Positions 1-62,187 of a stretch of 64,000 bases of DNA are shown one piece after another. Within the stretch, counting starts at the first letter, position 1. Every line of letters starts with the position of its first letter. Made by a program: the position numbers and the translations under genes. The notes under the pieces are model-generated. The model searched no databases, was not told where the DNA came from, and saw nothing but the letters and a program-made list of their open reading frames with translations. Source of the DNA: Albidovulum sediminis (GTDB taxonomy: Bacteria; Pseudomonadota; Alphaproteobacteria; Rhodobacterales; Rhodobacteraceae); NCBI RefSeq assembly GCF_025380365.1, contig NZ_JAOCQF010000002.1, positions 514,846 through 578,845 on the forward strand, in the 5' to 3' direction.

Positions 1-5291
<5,291 letters not shown>

Positions 5292-52088: not shown

Positions 52089-54125
52089 ATGACCCAGACA
52101 GAGATCGCCGCGCCTCTGGCCGCAGCGTTGAACGACCGAGGGTATGCGACCCTCACCTCCGTGCAGACGGCCGTGCTGGCCCCCGGTGCGCGGGGACGCG
52201 ACCTTCTGGTCTCCGCGCAGACCGGATCGGGCAAGACGGTCGCGTTCGGCATCGCCGTGGCGCCCGACCTGCTGGGGCCGGGGGATGTGCTTCCCCGGAG
52301 CGACGCCCCTCTGGCCCTCGTCATCGCGCCGACGCGCGAACTGGCGCTGCAGGTCGCCGCGGAACTCGGCTGGCTCTACGCGGCCGCCGGTGCCCGGATC
52401 GCAAGCTGCGTCGGCGGCATGGACTACCGCAGCGAACGGCGTTCGCTGGCGCAGGGGGCGCATATCGTCGTCGGTACGCCCGGGCGCCTGCGCGATCACA
52501 TCGAGCGCGGCAGCCTTGACCTGGCGCACCTGCGCGTCGCCGTGCTGGACGAGGCGGACGAGATGCTGGATCTCGGCTTCCGCGAGGATCTGGAGTTCAT
52601 CCTGGGCACGGCGCCGGAAGGCCGCCGCACCCTGATGTTCTCGGCCACCGTGCCCGCCGCCATCGAGAAGCTGGCGCGGGATTTCCAGCGCGATGCCCTG
52701 CGCGTCGCCGCCATGGGCGAGGCGCGCCAGCACGGCGACATCGCCTATCGGGCGTTGTCCGTGACCGCACGGGATCGCGAGAACGCGATCTTCAACCTCT
52801 TGCGGTTCTACGAGGCGCGGACGGCCATCGTCTTCTGCAAGACGCGGGCCAACGTGAACCACCTTCTGGCCCGTATGGGCAACCGCGGCTTCCGCGTCGT
52901 GGCGCTGTCGGGCGAGTTGTCGCAGCAGGAGCGCACCCACGCCCTGCAAGCCCTGCGCGACGGGCGTGCGCGGGTCTGCATCGCGACCGACGTCGCGGCG
53001 CGCGGCATCGACCTGCCGGGGCTGGAACTTGTCATCCACGCCGATCTGCCGACCAACCCGGACACGCTCCTGCACCGGTCGGGCCGGACCGGCCGTGCCG
53101 GCGCCAAGGGCGTTTCGGCGCTGATCGTCACGCCTGCGGACTACAAGAAGGCGCAGCGCCTGTTGCAGGGCGCGAAGGTGACCGCCGACTGGGGCAAGGC
53201 GCCGTCGGCTGACGATGTCCGGGCGCGCGACGACCTCCGCATGCTGGATCATCCGGCGCTGGGTGCGACGCTGGAGGACATGACCATCGCCCGCGATCTG
53301 CTGGCCCGGGTCGGCGCCGAACAGGTCGCCGCCGCCTTCGTCCAGTTGTGGCGCGAAGGCCGCCCGCCGCCCGAGGAACTGACCGAAACCGCCCCGCCCT
53401 CGGATGCGGCGCCGCGCGCCCCGCGCGAATTCGGGGCTTCGGTCTGGTTCGCGCTGTCGGTCGGGCATGCCGGCCGGGCAGAGGCGCGCTGGCTGCTGCC
53501 GAAGATCTGCGACGCGGGCGGGATCACCCGCGACGACATCGGCGCGATCCGCGTGCGCGAGCGGGAGACCTTCGTTCAGATCGCGACCGCGGCCGCGCCC
53601 CGCTTCGGCGAAACGACCGAGATCGAACCGGGGCTGGTGATGAACCGTCTTCAGGGGGAACCGACCGCGGAGCGCGGCTTCGCGGACCGCGCGGGGCAGA
53701 AGCCCGCGCGCCCGGGCCGGGATTTTTCCGCGAAGGCACGGCCCGCAACCGCCCCAAGGCCCGCGCCCGCCGCAAGGCCCGCGCCCGCCGCAAGGCCCGC
53801 GCCCGCCGCAAGGCCAGTGACGGACGACCGGCCTCCGCAGGCCGCGCCGCAGCAAGCACCCACCCCTGCCGCGCCCGAGGCGCCATCGGGCGGAAAGCAG
53901 CGCGTCAAACCCCGCTGGAGCGCCGAGCAGAAGGCATCGCGGCCAGTCAAGGCCGGCCCGGCGCCCGAAGCCGGCGACAGTCCCGCAAGGCCCGGACCCA
54001 AGACCGGACCCAAGACCGGGGGCAAGCCCGCGGGTGCCGGGGGCAAGCCCAAGGGCAAATACGCGCAGGCGCGCCGCCCGAAACCCGGCGAGGCACCTCC
54101 GCGTCGACCCAAGGGCAAGCGGTAA
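52089..54125 (+). CDS. DEAD-box RNA helicase, DbpA/CsdA-like
   Basis: 678 residues. Helicase core: Q-motif region GYATLTSVQTAVLAPG, SAQTGSGKTVAFGIA, APTRELALQ, LDEADEMLDLGF, FSATVPA, ATDVAARGIDLPG and HRSGRTGRAG. It is followed by a DbpA-type RNA-binding domain (RAEARWLLPKICDAGGITRD) and a 140-residue disordered tail rich in Pro, Ala, Lys, Arg, encoded partly by an 18-bp DNA repeat. It remodels RNA, probably in ribosome assembly or cold adaptation. RBS is not strong; 5' leader of about 90 nt is possible. Confidence 0.95.
   Translation: MTQTEIAAPLAAALNDRGYATLTSVQTAVLAPGARGRDLLVSAQTGSGKTVAFGIAVAPDLLGPGDVLPRSDAPLALVIAPTRELALQVAAELGWLYAAAGARIASCVGGMDYRSERRSLAQGAHIVVGTPGRLRDHIERGSLDLAHLRVAVLDEADEMLDLGFREDLEFILGTAPEGRRTLMFSATVPAAIEKLARDFQRDALRVAAMGEARQHGDIAYRALSVTARDRENAIFNLLRFYEARTAIVFCKTRANVNHLLARMGNRGFRVVALSGELSQQERTHALQALRDGRARVCIATDVAARGIDLPGLELVIHADLPTNPDTLLHRSGRTGRAGAKGVSALIVTPADYKKAQRLLQGAKVTADWGKAPSADDVRARDDLRMLDHPALGATLEDMTIARDLLARVGAEQVAAAFVQLWREGRPPPEELTETAPPSDAAPRAPREFGASVWFALSVGHAGRAEARWLLPKICDAGGITRDDIGAIRVRERETFVQIATAAAPRFGETTEIEPGLVMNRLQGEPTAERGFADRAGQKPARPGRDFSAKARPATAPRPAPAARPAPAARPAPAARPVTDDRPPQAAPQQAPTPAAPEAPSGGKQRVKPRWSAEQKASRPVKAGPAPEAGDSPARPGPKTGPKTGGKPAGAGGKPKGKYAQARRPKPGEAPPRRPKGKR
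53761..53814 (+). repeat. Three perfect 18-bp tandem units in the helicase tail
   Basis: CCGCGCCCGCCGCAAGGC three times without mismatch, encoding repeats of PAPAAR. Expected to vary in copy number between strains. Confidence 0.9.
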
Positions 54126-54229
54126 TTCCCCGCCGCGCCGGTTCCCCCGTTTCCTGCGCAACCCCTCTTGACTGGCGTGGTCGCAAGTATACGCTTGACC
54201 CACAGCTGGTGAGAAGCCGAGTGGCAAGC

Positions 54230-54278
54230 AGGCCCTGACTGCCGACCCCATGGTCGGCCGCAGGGCCTTTGGCGTTTT
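54230..54278 (+). terminator. Terminator-like leader hairpin upstream of amiC (candidate AmiR antitermination site)
   Basis: AGGCCCTG (54230-54237) pairs with CAGGGCCT (54261-54268), enclosing a second stem GCCGACC (54241-54247) / GGTCGGC (54252-54258) with loop CCAT. TTTGGCGTTTT follows. Upstream, 54180-54229 can fold into smaller hairpins (ACC...GGT and GCC...GGC inside GCTTG/CAAGC). The only ATG ahead of the amiC body sits in the loop, so this is best read as leader, not gene. Confidence 0.6.
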
Positions 54279-54288
54279 GGGGGATGCC

Positions 54289-55374
54289 TTGGGCAAGGAC
54301 AAGCGGCCGATAGAGGTGGGGTTGCTCTACTCCCGTTCGGGGGGCTATTCGCTCTTTTCCGAGGCGTGCCGTTCCGGCGCCCTGGCCGCGATGGCGCGCA
54401 TCAACGCCGATCCTGCCTACGACATGTGCCTGCTGCCGATCGAGCGCGACCCCGGTGGGGACGTCGACCTCTATGGCCCGCTGTGCGAGGATCTGCTGCG
54501 CAACACGCGCGCGCGCCATATCGTCGGCTGCGTCACCTCGTGGAGCCGGAAGGAGGTCATCCCGGTGCTGGAAAAGCACGGCGGGACGCTTTGGTACGCG
54601 CTGCCCTACGAGGGGTTCGAGGCCTCCGATCATGTCGTCTACACCCATGCCTGCCCCAATCAGCACCTCCTGCCGCTCCTGGACTGGGCGTTGCCCGCGC
54701 ACGGGGCCCGGGCCTACCTGACCGGATCGAACTACATCTGGGGATGGGAGATGAACCGCCTCGCGCGGGAGCGGATCACCGCAGCCGGCGGCGAGGTGCT
54801 GGGCGAACGCTGCCTTCCGCTCGGCTCCCGCGAGGTTGGGCGCATTCTCGAGGAAGTGCGCGCCACCCGCCCCGCCTTCATCCTGAACAACCTGGTCGGC
54901 CCGTCGTCCTACGAATTTCTGGCGCGGATGCACCGGCTGGCGTCCGAGGACGCCGATTTCTCGCCCGCGCGGTGTCCGATCCTGTCGTGCAACCTGACCG
55001 AGGCGGAACTGCCCGCGCTGGGTGCGGCCGCCGAAGGTCTGGTCTCCGCCGGGCCCTATTTCCGCACCGGCGGGGCAGGCGGCTTCGGGTCGTCGCTCGA
55101 GGCGGCGGCGCACGCCGCGGTCCTCGAACTTGCCCGGCTTCTCAACGGCCGGCCGGATGCCGAAACCGCAAGCCTCCCCGCGCTGCTGGAGAATGCACAA
55201 GGGCCGGCGATGATCGACCGCGCCACCCACCACACCTCGCTGCCGGTGGTGATCGCGCGGGTTCAGGACGGGATCTTCCGCACGGTGAAGGCGCTGCCCG
55301 CCGTGCCCGGCGACCCCTACCTTGCGCGCGCCCGCACCCCGGCGGCCGCCCCGATCCTCAGGGTGGTGTCATGA
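54289..55374 (+). CDS. amiC: AmiC-type amide-sensing periplasmic-fold protein (urea/amide receptor family)
   Basis: Cytoplasmic amide sensor that in Pseudomonas holds AmiR inactive until an amide binds. 361 residues from the TTG at 54289 (GGGGGA 4 nt before), giving KDKRPIEVGLLYSRSGGYSL, the usual AmiC N-terminus with no signal peptide. An ATG at 54250 would add 13 residues but lies in the loop of a strong hairpin. Family features: SRKEVIPVLEKHGGTLWYAL, YLTGSNYIWGWEMNRLAR, FFYxxYF-like GPYFRTGGAGGFGSSL. Overlaps amiR by 4 bp (ATGA). First gene of a seven-gene amide operon. Confidence 0.9.
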   Translation: MGKDKRPIEVGLLYSRSGGYSLFSEACRSGALAAMARINADPAYDMCLLPIERDPGGDVDLYGPLCEDLLRNTRARHIVGCVTSWSRKEVIPVLEKHGGTLWYALPYEGFEASDHVVYTHACPNQHLLPLLDWALPAHGARAYLTGSNYIWGWEMNRLARERITAAGGEVLGERCLPLGSREVGRILEEVRATRPAFILNNLVGPSSYEFLARMHRLASEDADFSPARCPILSCNLTEAELPALGAAAEGLVSAGPYFRTGGAGGFGSSLEAAAHAAVLELARLLNGRPDAETASLPALLENAQGPAMIDRATHHTSLPVVIARVQDGIFRTVKALPAVPGDPYLARARTPAAAPILRVVS

Positions 55375-55985
55375 GGCGCCCGATGCGCATCCAGAACCTT
55401 GGTGGCGCGACGGCCGTGATCCTGCATCGCCCGCACCCCACGGTGCAGGCGCTGGACCGGCAGTTGCGCGCGATCGGGCTGCAGGTGTCGCAGGCCTGGC
55501 CCGACCTCGGCCCCGCGGCGCTGGGCGCGGATTTCGTGTTCTTCGACGCCGACATGGGGCATGACGAACAGTTTCCCTGGGCGCCGGGGCAAAGCCCGAT
55601 GCCAATGGTCGCCCTGATAGGTTCGGAGGCGCCGGGGCGGATCGAATGGGCGCTGAGGGCGGGGGCGCATGCGCAGCTTCTCAAGCCCGTGGGCGACAAT
55701 GGCGCCTATTCCGCGCTCCTCATCGCGCGCGATGCCTTCGACGCGCAGCGGTCGCTTTCGGTCGAGATCGCCGACCTGCGCCGCCGGCTGGACGAACGTC
55801 AGACCGTCGTGCGCGCCGTCACCCTGCTGGCCGCCCATGGCGCCCGTGACGACGCCGCCGCCTACGGCCGGCTGCGCCAGATGGCGATGGCCTGGCGTGT
55901 CAGCCTCGAAGACGCGGCCGCCCGTGTGGTTGCCCGCCTGACCGCCGCCGAGGAGGAGGTCGATGACCGACGTGACCGCGGCTGA
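55371..55985 (+). CDS. amiR: AmiR-type ANTAR antiterminator
   Basis: 204 residues. N-terminal pseudo-receiver (TAVILHRPHPTVQALDRQLR ... LVALIGSEAPGRIEW) without the phosphorylated Asp signature of true receivers, then a coiled coil (LSVEIADLRRRLDERQTVVR) and a C-terminal ANTAR domain (LLAAHGARDDAAAYGRLRQM, AWRVSLEDAAARVVARL). ANTAR domains bind paired hairpins in nascent RNA and block terminators. AmiC next door would release it when an amide is bound. A terminator-like hairpin lies just ahead of amiC. Overlaps the following permease gene by 23 bp. Confidence 0.9.
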   Translation: MRRPMRIQNLGGATAVILHRPHPTVQALDRQLRAIGLQVSQAWPDLGPAALGADFVFFDADMGHDEQFPWAPGQSPMPMVALIGSEAPGRIEWALRAGAHAQLLKPVGDNGAYSALLIARDAFDAQRSLSVEIADLRRRLDERQTVVRAVTLLAAHGARDDAAAYGRLRQMAMAWRVSLEDAAARVVARLTAAEEEVDDRRDRG

Positions 55986-56850
55986 CCCCGCCCGCAGGCC
56001 GGCCTCGGCCCTGCGGCGCCTGATTCGGCGCCGGCTGGCGCTTCTCGGCGCGGTGCTGATCGTGCTGGCGGTGGCCGGGGCGGTGCTGGCCCCCTGGATC
56101 GCGCCCTTCGCGCCGGACGAACAGCTGTTCGACGGGCTGACACTGGAGGGCGCGCCGCTTCCGCCCGACGGGCGCTTCCTGTTCGGGACGGACCTGCTGG
56201 GCCGCGACCTCTTCACGCGCATCCTGTACGGCGCGCGCACCTCGCTGATCATCGGGATCGTGGCGAACGGGATGGCGCTTGTCATCGGGACGCTGGTCGG
56301 CATCACCGCGGGCTATTTCCGCGGCTGGATCGGCGCAGTGCTGATGCGCTTCACCGATCTGATGATGGCCTTTCCCGCGCTTCTCCTGGCGATCTGCCTT
56401 GCCGCGATCTTCCAGCCGTCGCTGTGGATCGTGGCGATGGTCATCGCGCTGGTGAACTGGGTGCAGGCGGCGCGCGTGATCTATACCGAGACCACCTCCC
56501 TTGCCGAACGCGACTTCATCGCGGCCGAGCGGACGCTGGGTGCGGGCACGGGGCGCATCCTGTTCCTGCACATCCTGCCCCATCTGGTGCCGACGATCAT
56601 CGTCTGGGGGACGCTCGGCATTTCCACCACCGTCCTGCTCGAGGCGACGCTGTCCTTCCTCGGTGTCGGCGTCCAGCCGCCCACGCCGAGCTGGGGCAAC
56701 ATCATCTTCGAGAACCAGACATGGTTCCAGACCGCGCCGTGGCTGGTGTTCATACCGGGTGCCGCGATCATCCTTCTGGCGCTGGCCTTCAACCTTGTGG
56801 GCGATGCGCTGCGCGAGGTGCTCGACCCGACGCAGAGGGGGCGCGACTGA
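55963..56850 (+). CDS. ABC transporter permease, oligopeptide type (DppC/OppC-like)
   Basis: 295 residues with an N-terminal helix (LALLGAVLIVLAVAGAVLAP), the DppC N-domain FLFGTDLLGRDLFTRILYGA, and the EAA loop around RDFIAAERTLGAGTGRILFL. Six helices. It comes before the DppB-like gene, the reverse of the usual B-C order. Starts inside amiR by 23 bp, so they are translated together. Confidence 0.94.
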   Translation: MTDVTAADPARRPASALRRLIRRRLALLGAVLIVLAVAGAVLAPWIAPFAPDEQLFDGLTLEGAPLPPDGRFLFGTDLLGRDLFTRILYGARTSLIIGIVANGMALVIGTLVGITAGYFRGWIGAVLMRFTDLMMAFPALLLAICLAAIFQPSLWIVAMVIALVNWVQAARVIYTETTSLAERDFIAAERTLGAGTGRILFLHILPHLVPTIIVWGTLGISTTVLLEATLSFLGVGVQPPTPSWGNIIFENQTWFQTAPWLVFIPGAAIILLALAFNLVGDALREVLDPTQRGRD

Positions 56851-56851
56851 G

Positions 56852-57772
56852 ATGCCCGCCTACGTCGTCCGCCGGCTGCTTGTCTCGGTCCTGATCCTCC
56901 TGGGGGTCAGCTTCATCACCTTTGTCCTGCTCTACGTCCTGCCGGCCGATCCGGTGCGCCAGATCGCAGGGCGGTCGGCCACCGCGGAAACGGTGGAGAA
57001 CATCCGAAGGGAGCTTGGGCTGGACCGCCCCTTCATTGTCCAGTACGGGCGCTACTTGCTGGGGCTGGTGCAGGGCGACCTCGGGCGCAGCTACCTGCAG
57101 AAGACCGAGGTGGCGGAACTGATCGCCTCTCGCCTGCCGGCGACGCTCCTGCTGATGCTGGGGGCGATCCTGGCGGAGCTTGCGCTGGGCCTGACGCTGG
57201 GGATCCTGGCCGCGCTCCGGCGCGGTACCATGCTGGACCAGACCCTGATGATGGCCAGCTTCGTCACCGTTTCGGCCCCGCAATTCGTCGTCGGCCTGCT
57301 GCTGCTCTACGTCTTCGCGGTCAAGCTGGGCTGGTTCCCGATCGGCGGCTACGGCACCTTTGCCCATCTGGTGCTTCCCGCCCTGACGCTGGGGATCCTG
57401 GGATCGGGCTGGTATTCCCGGATGATGCGGTCCTCGATGATCGAGGTGCTGCGCGCCGATTTCATCCGGACCGCCCGCGCCAAGGGCCTGACGCGCGCCC
57501 GCGTGATCCTGGTCCACGCGCTTCCCAACGCCGTCCTGCCGGTGATCGCCATGATCGGCATCGACATCGGCATCTTCATGGGCGGAATCGTCGTGGTCGA
57601 AAGCGTGTTCGGCTGGCCCGGCATCGGCCAGCTGGCCTGGCAGGCGATTCAGCGCGTGGATATTCCCATCATCATGGGCGTGACCCTGGTCTCGGCCCTT
57701 GCGATCATACTCGGCAACCTGCTGGCGGATCTGGTTGCCCCCTTCATCGACCCCCGCATCAAGCTCAAATGA
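56852..57772 (+). CDS. ABC transporter permease, oligopeptide type (DppB/OppB-like)
   Basis: 306 residues. DppB signature: N-terminal VVRRLLVSVLILLGVSFITF, then LPADPVRQIAG, ENIRRELGLDRPFIVQYGRY and the EAA loop RADFIRTARAKGLTRARVIL. It pairs with the DppC-like subunit encoded immediately upstream (gap 1 bp). Confidence 0.94.
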   Translation: MPAYVVRRLLVSVLILLGVSFITFVLLYVLPADPVRQIAGRSATAETVENIRRELGLDRPFIVQYGRYLLGLVQGDLGRSYLQKTEVAELIASRLPATLLLMLGAILAELALGLTLGILAALRRGTMLDQTLMMASFVTVSAPQFVVGLLLLYVFAVKLGWFPIGGYGTFAHLVLPALTLGILGSGWYSRMMRSSMIEVLRADFIRTARAKGLTRARVILVHALPNAVLPVIAMIGIDIGIFMGGIVVVESVFGWPGIGQLAWQAIQRVDIPIIMGVTLVSALAIILGNLLADLVAPFIDPRIKLK

Positions 57773-57791
57773 CCATCAGAGGAGAAGACGC

Positions 57792-59405
57792 ATGAAAAAA
57801 CTGCTTGTTTCCACCGCGCTGATGCTGTCGCTGGCGCTTCCCGCGCTGGCGCAGGACTACTCCCCCGATCCGAACGCCAAGCCCGGCGGCTCCATCATCG
57901 TCACCTACAAGGACGATGTGGCGACGCTCGACCCGGCCATCGGGTATGACTGGCAGAACTGGTCGATGATCAAGTCGCTGTTCGACGGGCTGATGGACTA
58001 TGTCCCCGGCACCACCACGCTGCGCCCGGGGCTGGCGGAAAGCCACGACGTCTCCGCCGATGGCTTGGTCTACACCTTCAAGCTGCGCCCCGGCGTCAAG
58101 TTCCACAACGGCCGCGAGTTGACGGCAGAGGATGTGAAATATTCGCTCGACCGCGTGACCAACCCGGCCACCCAGTCGCCGGGCGCGGGCTTCTTCGCCT
58201 CGATCGCGGGGTTCGAGAATGCGGGCGACGGCGGCCTCTCCGGGGTCGAGGTGGTCGATCCGCAGACCGTGAGGATCACCCTGACGCGCCCCGATGCGAC
58301 CTTCCTGCATGTCATGGCGCTCAACTTCTCCTTCGTGGTCCCGAAGGAGGTGGTCGAGGCCGAGGGGGCGGATTTCGGCAAGAAGCCGGTCGGCACCGGC
58401 GCCTTCAAGCTGACGGAATGGACGCTTGGCCAGCGGCTGGTGTTCGAGAAGAACCCCGACTACTGGGTCGCCGGCGTGCCTTACCTTGACAGTTTCACCG
58501 TCGAGGTGGGCCAGGAACCGGTGGTGGCGTTGCTGCGGCTCCAGAACGGCGAAGTGGATCTCCCGGGCGACGGCATACCGCCGGCGAAGTTCCAGGAGGT
58601 GATGGCCGATCCCGCGCAGGCCGAACGGGTCGTGCAGGGCGGGCAGCTGCACACCGGCTATGTCACCATGAACGTGACCCAGCCGCCCTTCGACAAGGTC
58701 GAGGTGCGCCGCGCCGTCAACATGGCGATCAACAAGGACCGCGTGGTGCAGATCATCAACGGCCGCGCGGTTCCCGCCAACCAGCCCCTGCCGCCCTCGA
58801 TGCCCGGCTACACGCAGGATTACGCGGGCTATGCCTATGACGTGGAAGGCGCGAAGAAGCTTCTGGCGGATGCCGGCTATCCCGACGGGTTCGAGACCGA
58901 GCTTTTCGTGATGAACACCGACCCGAACCCGCGCATCGCGCAGGCGATCCAGCAGGACCTGGCGGCGATCGGCATCAAGGCCGCGATCCAGTCCCTCGCG
59001 CAGGCCAACGTGATCGAGGCCGGCGGCGCCGGAACCGCGCCGATGATCTGGTCGGGCGGCATGGCCTGGATCGCCGACTTCCCCGATCCGTCCAACTTCT
59101 ACGGGCCGATCCTGGGTTGCGCCGGCGCGGCCGAAGGTGGCTGGAACTGGTCCAAGTACTGCAACGAGGCGCTGGATGCGAAGGCGGTCGAGGCCGACAG
59201 CATGTTCGACCCGGCCAAGTCCGGCGACCGGCTGAAGCTGTGGTCCGACATCTACATGGGGGTGATGGAGGACGCGCCCTGGGCGCCGGTCTTCAACGAG
59301 GAGCGCTACACCATGCGGTCCGAACGGATGGGCGGGGAAGATGCGCTCTACGTCGATCCGGTCTCGATCCCCGTCAACTACGACTACGTCTGGGTCAAAG
59401 AGTAA
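57792..59405 (+). CDS. ABC transporter substrate-binding protein, family 5 (DppA/OppA-like)
   Basis: 537 residues with a Sec signal (MKKLLVSTALMLSLALPALA) and the family 5 fold (DPAIGYDWQNWSMIKSLFDG, YTFKLRPGVKFHNGRELTAE, DVKYSLDRV). It delivers the ligand to the permeases; in this operon the ligand is probably an amide or short acylated compound. RBS AGAGGAGAAG is strong. Stop TAA overlaps the next start (TAATG). Confidence 0.95.
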   Translation: MKKLLVSTALMLSLALPALAQDYSPDPNAKPGGSIIVTYKDDVATLDPAIGYDWQNWSMIKSLFDGLMDYVPGTTTLRPGLAESHDVSADGLVYTFKLRPGVKFHNGRELTAEDVKYSLDRVTNPATQSPGAGFFASIAGFENAGDGGLSGVEVVDPQTVRITLTRPDATFLHVMALNFSFVVPKEVVEAEGADFGKKPVGTGAFKLTEWTLGQRLVFEKNPDYWVAGVPYLDSFTVEVGQEPVVALLRLQNGEVDLPGDGIPPAKFQEVMADPAQAERVVQGGQLHTGYVTMNVTQPPFDKVEVRRAVNMAINKDRVVQIINGRAVPANQPLPPSMPGYTQDYAGYAYDVEGAKKLLADAGYPDGFETELFVMNTDPNPRIAQAIQQDLAAIGIKAAIQSLAQANVIEAGGAGTAPMIWSGGMAWIADFPDPSNFYGPILGCAGAAEGGWNWSKYCNEALDAKAVEADSMFDPAKSGDRLKLWSDIYMGVMEDAPWAPVFNEERYTMRSERMGGEDALYVDPVSIPVNYDYVWVKE

Positions 59406-60360
59406 TGTGCAAGGCCTGCGACTACACCATCCACGGCGCGCAGCACCATTTCGGCTGGGACAACTCCCTGGCCCCGGCGCTGCGCGCCGAACCGGGATCG
59501 ACGATCCTGTTTCACTGTCATGATTCCTCGGCGGGCCAGCTTGGCCCGTCGTCTACTGTGTCCGACGTGCAGGCGCTGGATTTCGGCCGGATCAACCCGG
59601 TTTCCGGGCCGATCTTCGTCGAGGGCGCCCGCCCGGGCGACGCGCTGAAGGTGACGATCGAGGGCTTTACCCCGCAACCCTTCGACGGGCGCGGCTTTGG
59701 CTGGACGGCGAACATTCCGGGTTTCGGGCTGCTCGCCGACCAGTTCACCGACCCGGCGCTGACCGTCTGGGCCTACGACCCGGACAGCATGGCCCCCGCC
59801 CTCTGGGGCAAGGAGGCGCGGGTGCCGCTCAAGCCCTTCGCGGGCACGATCGGCAACGCGCCGGCCGCGGCGGGGCACCATTCCGTCGTGCCGCCGCGGC
59901 GGGTCGGCGGCAACCTCGACATTCGCGACCTTGCGGCGGGCACCGTGCTCTACCTGCCGGTCGAGGTAGAGGGCGCGCTCTTCAGCGTCGGCGACACCCA
60001 CGCCGCGCAGGGGGATGGCGAGGTCTGCGGCACCGCGATCGAAAGCCCGATGGACGTTGTGCTGACGCTGGACGTGGTGAAGGGCGCGGACCTGAAGACG
60101 CCGCGCTTTTCGACACCCGGCCCGGTCACGCGCCATCTGGACGCCAAGGGCTACGAGGTGACGACCGGCATCGGGCCGGACCTCATGTCCGCCGCGCGGG
60201 ATGCGGTGGCCAACATGGTCGACCTGCTTTGCGCGTCGCGCGGCATCGCGGCGGTGGATGCCTACATGCTCTGTTCGGTCTGCGGCGATCTTCGCATCTC
60301 GGAGATTGTCGACATGCCGAACTGGGTGGTCAGCTTCTACTTCCCGCGCTGCGTCTTCGA

Positions 60361-60364
<4 letters not shown>
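59405..60364 (+). CDS. fmdA: Acetamidase/formamidase
   Basis: Hydrolyses formamide or acetamide to the acid and ammonia. 319 residues. Family motifs: ILFHCHDSSAGQLGPSSTVS, GFGLLADQF, GTIGNAPAAAG, RRVGGNLDIRDLAAGTVLYL, and the metal/active site VGDTHAAQGDGEVCGTAIES. Begins on the stop of the binding protein gene and overlaps the ATPase gene by 4 bp. It is the enzyme of the operon and explains the presence of the AmiC/AmiR pair. Formamide versus acetamide cannot be told apart here. Confidence 0.94.

Positions 60365-62187
<1,823 letters not shown>

Follow-up and report, generated by a model that had tools for sequence, protein, structure and literature searches.

Background

The ami operon of Pseudomonas aeruginosa holds its own regulators, the amide sensor AmiC and the ANTAR protein AmiR, within the unit that they regulate. 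We analysed a 64,000-nucleotide stretch of the Albidovulum sediminis genome (contig NZ_JAOCQF010000002.1, positions 514,846-578,845; hereafter the window, with positions counted from its first letter), in which homologous amiC and amiR genes likewise lie inside an operon. The segment at 54202-54278 (forward strand) is likely to be the 5' leader of this amiC-amiR-ABC-fmdA operon (ABC, ATP-binding cassette) and to act as a transcription antitermination switch under AmiR control, as a preliminary description of this DNA had proposed.

In P. aeruginosa, AmiC is known to release AmiR in response to inducer (PMC3369931). The terminator leader that AmiR binds there lies before amiE, whereas the one described here lies before amiC, with ABC transporter genes and an FmdA-type rather than an AmiE-type enzyme gene further down. 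Moreover, the amiE leader carries dual loops with A at position 1 and G at position 4 (A1/G4; PMC3369931), an arrangement described as the rule for ANTAR RNAs (PMC3369931, PMC8164766, PMC7496416), while the present leader has C at position 4 and a degenerate first hairpin. The target RNAs of EutV and NasR resemble it in their short stem, A-first hexaloop, C-G closing pair and a 3' arm common to the terminator; they differ in that here G4 is absent, a single hexaloop is well kept and AmiR is without the lysine with which EutV contacts G4. Actinobacterial ANTAR RNAs also show a looser A1/G4 conservation (over 50%), yet they are still dual stem-loops, few of which lie upstream of a terminator (PMC8164766). 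NmPAL, a LOV-ANTAR receptor (PMC8934654), recognises small single RNA hairpins as well, though in engineered translational control with aptamers (PMC11381354) and not in a natural terminator leader. Finally, an amidase operon on a Klebsiella plasmid also combines amiC and amiR with a four-gene ABC transporter, its enzyme being AmiE; AmiR antitermination is mentioned in that paper, and the word "leader" is absent from its text (PMC13209695).

ANTAR antitermination by AmiC-AmiR is already known; what is new here is a reduced, re-lettered and conserved leader. Among the papers that full-text searches listed, no title or opening of an abstract mentioned this Rhodobacterales leader or an A1/C4 single-loop ANTAR leader.

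Results

A terminator hairpin that shares an arm with a conserved mini-hairpin

The locus was compared with AmiC relatives in named genomes; of the 194 found, the 80 best were used. They show 55-83% identity and come from 79 genomes, as loci L069 and L090 share one, and the closest of them are Rhodobacteraceae such as Tabrizicola soli. Together with the window's own genome, these gave 81 amiC loci of Rhodobacterales type. Leaders were searched by patterns, by script and with RNAalifold, and outgroup loci were scanned on both strands. One locus without the mini-hairpin (L102) was excluded from loop counts and one with an incomplete AmiR (L033) from residue counts; L002-L013, which stem from a genome search overlapping with the named set, were left uncounted, and G214 (loop ATTCGC) enters no count.

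The terminator hairpin before amiC was confirmed. This intrinsic terminator (54231-54278) consists of a nested hairpin (54231-54267), with outer arms 54231-54237/54261-54267 (GGCCCTG/CAGGGCC) and inner arms 54241-54247/54252-54258 (GCCGACC/GGTCGGC), and of the U-rich tail TTTGGCGTTTT (54268-54278), which ends just before the ribosome site GGGGGA. The preliminary description had recognised the perfect nested hairpin, its tail and the ribosome site, giving the arms 8 and 7 pairs where we count 7 and 7. For 54160-54300 the folding energy is -65.7 kcal/mol (z -2.76), with 0/200 shuffles equally good, and the nested hairpin is still part of the minimum-energy fold when folding begins at the predicted transcription start (54202-54300). 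The 80 terminator folds average -26.2 kcal/mol. When run unaided on 20 sequences picked for likeness, RNAalifold recovered the same terminator and neither of the two small hairpins discussed below; in this set 90.0% of the cells of 16 named pairs are paired, as opposed to 28.8-44.5% when the pairs are slid, and eight pairs show changes on both sides versus a shuffled mean of 3.3.

Overlapping the base of the terminator is the mini-hairpin P2 (54223-54234, GGC-AAGCAG-GCC), the likely target of AmiR. Searching for GGC-N6-GCC within 170 bases upstream of amiC, with the loop letters left free, yielded the pattern in 81/81 upstream stretches, and in 80 of the 81 it stands before amiC, in leaders of which 78/80 are distinct in sequence. 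At L102 the operon is kept; its only match is an unrelated one far upstream, and the sequence before its terminator looks replaced. The motif GGCANNYRNGCC is found at the leader in 71/80 loci versus 53 occurrences elsewhere in these loci, which comprise 945,530 bases. In 78/80 folds (L060 and L099 fail) the 3' GCC of P2 is paired throughout, as the base of a U-tract terminator, and thus the two folds exclude each other; in the window, the terminator is weakened by about 9 kcal/mol (from -28.1 to -18.8) when P2 forms.

Upstream of P2 lies a predicted sigma-70-type promoter (TTGACT, 16 nucleotides, TACGCT; 54168-54195), with a putative start at ACA (54202-54204; ACAT-like in relatives) some 36 nucleotides after the beginning of the -35 hexamer. 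TTGAC occurs 34-80 bases before P2 in 64/80 loci, while the ten control stretches examined have it in 0-6 of 78-80, a -10 element of the form NANNNT follows at a 16-18 nucleotide spacer in 64/80, and both are present in 50/80. Likewise, A-N-A-T is found near the predicted start in 66/80 loci, compared to 400 of 4000 background stretches (10%).

One well-kept hexaloop with altered letters

The preliminary description had placed smaller hairpins at 54193-54229 as possible AmiR targets and looked to relatives for two conserved hairpins with A1/G4 loops. Two small hairpins do exist, at somewhat different places: a weak one, P1 (54207-54219), and P2. With regard to the letters, only A1 held up. It is present in 80/80 P2 loops, although the search pattern made no demand for A, whereas G4, which is read by EutV, occurs in 1/80 and is absent from the window. 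Position 4 is instead C in 66/80 loops, the window's included, A in 7 and T in 6, and position 5 is a purine in 79/80.

As for P1, the window's copy (UGGU-GAGAA-GCCG) has a pentaloop and folds at -1.9 kcal/mol, thereby just missing our rule for a first hairpin (at most -2.0 kcal/mol and a gap of 1-4 nucleotides before P2); the window is hence counted among the 38 loci without one. The other 42 of the 80 have such an adjacent hairpin, versus 8.6% of shuffles, with loops of 5 nucleotides in 26, 6 in 12, 4 in three and 7 in one. Across the 20 alike sequences, 75.0% of the P1 cells are paired and 3/4 pairs show changes on both sides. The P1-P2 linker in the window measures 3 nucleotides (the 1-4 nucleotide gaps of the 42 loci follow from the search design), compared with known linkers of 5-12 nucleotides in Enterococcus faecalis eut and 2-25 in actinobacteria. 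In many loci, then, the first hairpin is degenerate or missing. In 16/80 the predicted start lies only 7-10 nucleotides before P2, so that no first hairpin would fit there if that start is right. All 16 of these short leaders have TTGAC, and 8/16 have a NANNNT -10 element at 16-18 nucleotides, which makes their start sites less sure and weakens the idea that one loop is enough.

These observations bear directly on whether the segment is a classical dual-hexaloop ANTAR leader with two A1/G4 loops, which we consider unlikely. Such a leader would explain the overlap of P2 with the terminator, the A at the start of its loop and the adjacent first hairpin of 42/80 loci; dual A1/G4 leaders can indeed be seen by eye near lysine-bearing AmiRs elsewhere, in L250 (P1 AACGAC, P2 AACGGA) and L251 (P1 AGUGGU, P2 AACGAA). 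However, it would not account for G4 in a single P2 of 80, nor for the 16 loci with just 7-10 nucleotides before P2, and a first hexaloop with A1/G4 is possible in any register in only 2/80 loci (L070 as scored, L081 in another register).

Val or Ile replaces the G4-binding lysine of EutV in AmiR

In the structure of EutV, G4 is described as the sole base-specific contact and is held by Arg142, Lys149, Glu160 and Tyr164 (PMC8934654). We fixed the numbering of AmiR by profile alignment with EutV (6ww6) and NasR (4akk). At the position of Lys149, 79 of the 80 readable proteins have Val and one has Ile (the window's residue is Val150), while P. aeruginosa AmiR has Lys. The other RNA-contact positions of EutV are kept: R142 in 80/80, E/D160 in 80/80, Y/F164 in 80/80, R168 in 79/80 and M172 in 80/80.

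Outside the Rhodobacterales set, G4 tends to accompany the lysine. Near lysine-bearing AmiRs we found 13 distinct A1 hexaloops on terminator bases, eight with G4 (AGGGTC, AGGGCA, AAGGAT, AACGAA, AATGGT, ATGGGC, ATGGAA, AACGGA) and five without (AACAAA, AAATAG, AACAAG, AAGAAG, AATACG); none has C4, and ten have a purine at position 5. Several of the 13 may be due to chance, since the four scanned sets gave 33, 20, 14 and 32 hexaloop matches, and other loop lengths gave 12 to 28. Without the lysine, an A1 hexaloop on a terminator base was found at four outgroup loci (L014, L015, L016/L224 and L116/L209). The four Val/Leu leaders of other lineages (ATCGGA, AATGGT, AATTGC, AAATGA) have G4 in two, C4 in none and a purine at position 5 in all four. 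L247, with Gln at the lysine position and the loop AAAAAA, is in neither list. A strict coupling, in which loss of the lysine means loss of G4, was rejected on the grounds that 5/13 lysine-side loops lack G4 and 2/4 Val/Leu leaders have it. Judged by these sequences, C4 is a mark of the Rhodobacterales operon and not of lysine loss as such, and the loop change and the contact-residue change appear in the same clade, which we claim as a co-occurrence and not as a proven cause. NasT-type loci were unusable as controls, as the 3 A1 hexaloops listed in 20 loci with 161 terminators did not exceed the numbers for other loop lengths.

In another AmiR group (L240-L243, L245, L246 and L249), Lys149 is replaced by Val, Thr or Ile and Met172 by Thr, and the scan gave no A1 hexaloop. 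In G028 (C49, 15211-15729), an AmiC homologue with an internal stop lies near a divergent AmiR, possibly a decaying operon.

A predicted antitermination switch and its alternatives

The comparison supports a leader with a terminator, an arm shared with P2 and co-conservation with AmiC-AmiR: the terminator leader is kept with amiC-amiR in 80/81 loci, and the genome has a single ANTAR gene. This much of the AmiR antitermination leader proposed in the preliminary description stands; the start site, termination, AmiR binding and read-through, and induction are what we infer. In the absence of inducer, AmiC would hold AmiR, and the nested terminator would form in the nascent RNA ahead of amiC. Once inducer is present, AmiR would be freed and would capture P2 as it emerges; the GCC arm of P2 being the U-proximal base of the terminator, the latter would lose its basal pairs, and the polymerase would read on. 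Because the sensor and antiterminator genes lie within the unit, as already noted in the preliminary description (AmiR follows AmiC in 80/80 named loci), induction would feed itself. The conserved target would in essence be one hexaloop of the form A1-N-N-C4-R5-N6 rather than A1/G4, and it would be read by an AmiR in which the lysine that contacts G4 is missing.

A number of observations weigh against such a switch. The 54202-54300 segment is not unusually stable (z -1.19, 28/200 shuffles equally good), the U-tract of the window is interrupted and weak, and a consensus scan reported neither the window's terminator nor the proposed promoter. On its own, 54202-54240 prefers a fold other than P1/P2 (z +0.93, 171/200 shuffles equally good), and P2 would therefore need help to form. 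The P2 pairs are invariant within the 80 loci, so the case for P2 pairing rests on the shared arm and on outgroups, such as L209 with its compensated stem GCC-AAAUGA-GGC on a GGCC/GGCC terminator base. In addition, the scan saw no leader in 5/9 further lysine-less AmiR lineages (G028, G087, G246, G387, G421), nor near the K149 AmiRs of L212, L244 and L248. The counterpart of the missing lysine in NasR, K347, is important for binding to RNA, which is about tenfold weaker even with the K347R change (PMC7496416), and eutP induction is abolished when the first hairpin is lost (PMC3369931).

The last of these speaks specifically against control by one loop. We nevertheless propose, tentatively and at somewhat less than even confidence, that the AmiR of Rhodobacterales uses one natural hexaloop for antitermination, with the changed code A1-N-N-C4-R5-N6, that lysine loss enabled the change, and that in the 16/80 short leaders without a first hairpin one loop suffices. 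Our estimate is lowered by the alternative register of L081 and by the uncertain starts of the short leaders; moreover, EutV and NasR needed both hairpins for good binding (PMC3369931, PMC7496416), NasR binding one hairpin at ~12 uM and two at ~1 uM (PMC7496416).

A different consequence of the missing lysine would be that AmiR no longer reads RNA in this clade, leaving the leader as a constitutive partial terminator or as the target of another factor. Val or Ile in place of lysine in 80/80 readable AmiRs, and the importance of its NasR equivalent, are what one would then expect; the upkeep of the remaining contact residues and of A1 in 80/80 P2s is not, and we regard this as quite improbable. 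We are equally reserved about AmiR binding the leader and acting on translation instead of termination. ANTAR RNAs located close to ribosome sites are known from other systems (PMC3369931), and in the fold from the predicted start some of GGGGGA is paired, within a small hairpin that follows the terminator; but the conserved structure does not include the ribosome site, and it is the terminator base that coincides with P2 in 78/80 loci.

That the hairpin merely ends the upstream DbpA-type DEAD-box helicase gene (52089-54125, same strand, about 100 bases before the leader hairpin), with amiC expressed on its own and unregulated, is the least probable reading, given the promoter-like TTGAC just before P2 in 64/80 loci, the terminator base that carries P2 in 78/80, and a synteny that rejects the leader as the terminator of an upstream gene: a DbpA homologue was found in 0/80 named loci (8 with less than 2 kb of upstream sequence) while the operon is kept, and the leader therefore belongs to the operon. 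Leader-peptide attenuation and a riboswitch were rejected, as there is little room between the predicted start and the terminator and no Rfam cis-regulatory family reached its gathering score at the leader. The Rfam scan of the window gave tRNA only, and that of 10 other loci (nine of the 80, and L020) gave nothing but an unrelated thiamine pyrophosphate (TPP) riboswitch (RF00059, L066 2396-2501).

The operon and similar leaders elsewhere

The ribosome site GGGGGA (54279-54284) is followed by the probable amiC start, TTG 54289 (the two spanning 54279-54291), which aligns by eye with the ATG/GTG starts of relatives L037/L032. ATG 54250, which begins in the hairpin loop as the preliminary description had noted, is for that reason probably not the start. 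The amiC gene (P0001, 54289-55374) encodes a Peripla_BP_5 amide-sensor homologue (PF13433; P. aeruginosa AmiC, 1pea, E 4.5e-38), and amiR (P0002, 55371-55985) a protein with AmiR_N and ANTAR domains (PF21332, PF03861; AmiR, 1qo0_D, E 1.9e-7), which bears out the earlier identification of both; the two adjoin, as expected of an AmiC-AmiR regulatory pair. There follow, all on the forward strand, two oligopeptide-type ABC permeases (55963-56850 and 56855-57772, PF00528), an SBP_bac_5 solute-binding protein (57789-59405, PF00496), an FmdA_AmdA acetamidase/formamidase (59402-60364, PF03069) and a double ABC ATPase (60361-62187, PF00005 in two stretches). This seven-gene order is kept in 71/80 named loci; of the remaining nine, seven reach the end of the available sequence and two have their best ABC match elsewhere.

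The alignment with P. aeruginosa AmiC shows YALPYEGF here in place of YPTPYEGF, and letters near the presumed pocket differ. Since the replaced stretch includes Thr106, a ligand contact, the inducer may differ from acetamide.

A search of the own genome with the leader pattern gave three matches, versus two in the reversed control, and by eye a terminator hairpin was present at the amiC leader only. A regulon in this genome was thus rejected, two of the three matches being without such a hairpin. In 61 relatives, a broad leader pattern gave matches in 30 genomes, often close to the reversed-control level.

In G033, which belongs to this family, a similarly built leader (L215, complement of ~5130-5190) has P2 GGC-AACAAA-GCC on a strong terminator. 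It precedes a divergent cluster of two tubulin-like proteins (Pfam matches below cut-off) and a CbbQ-type AAA protein, which adjoins a carbon-nitrogen hydrolase gene, an ATPase-like open reading frame (by eye), amiC and amiR; this leader is possibly a second target of that locus's AmiR. In L250, where AmiR bears the lysine, three terminator-linked A1 hexaloops (3784, 8419 and 8538) are found in one locus; for two of the three, an A1/G4 first hairpin (AACGAG, AACGAC) can be made out by eye, and together they may form a small ANTAR regulon.

Discussion

Search models that require two A1/G4 loops would miss the leaders described here, and the Rfam scans, in the loci that they covered, found no family for them. 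Accounts of how two hexaloops are used by an ANTAR dimer differ: work from 2012 placed the dimer on a pair of loops (PMC3369931), while a structure from 2022 showed that a dimer is unable to bind the two loops of the same RNA simultaneously, and successive binding was proposed (PMC8934654). A clade with one well-kept loop, some of whose leaders seemingly have no room for a second, would offer a natural test of this question. If our reading is true, the letters of an ANTAR loop can change along with the residue that contacts them.
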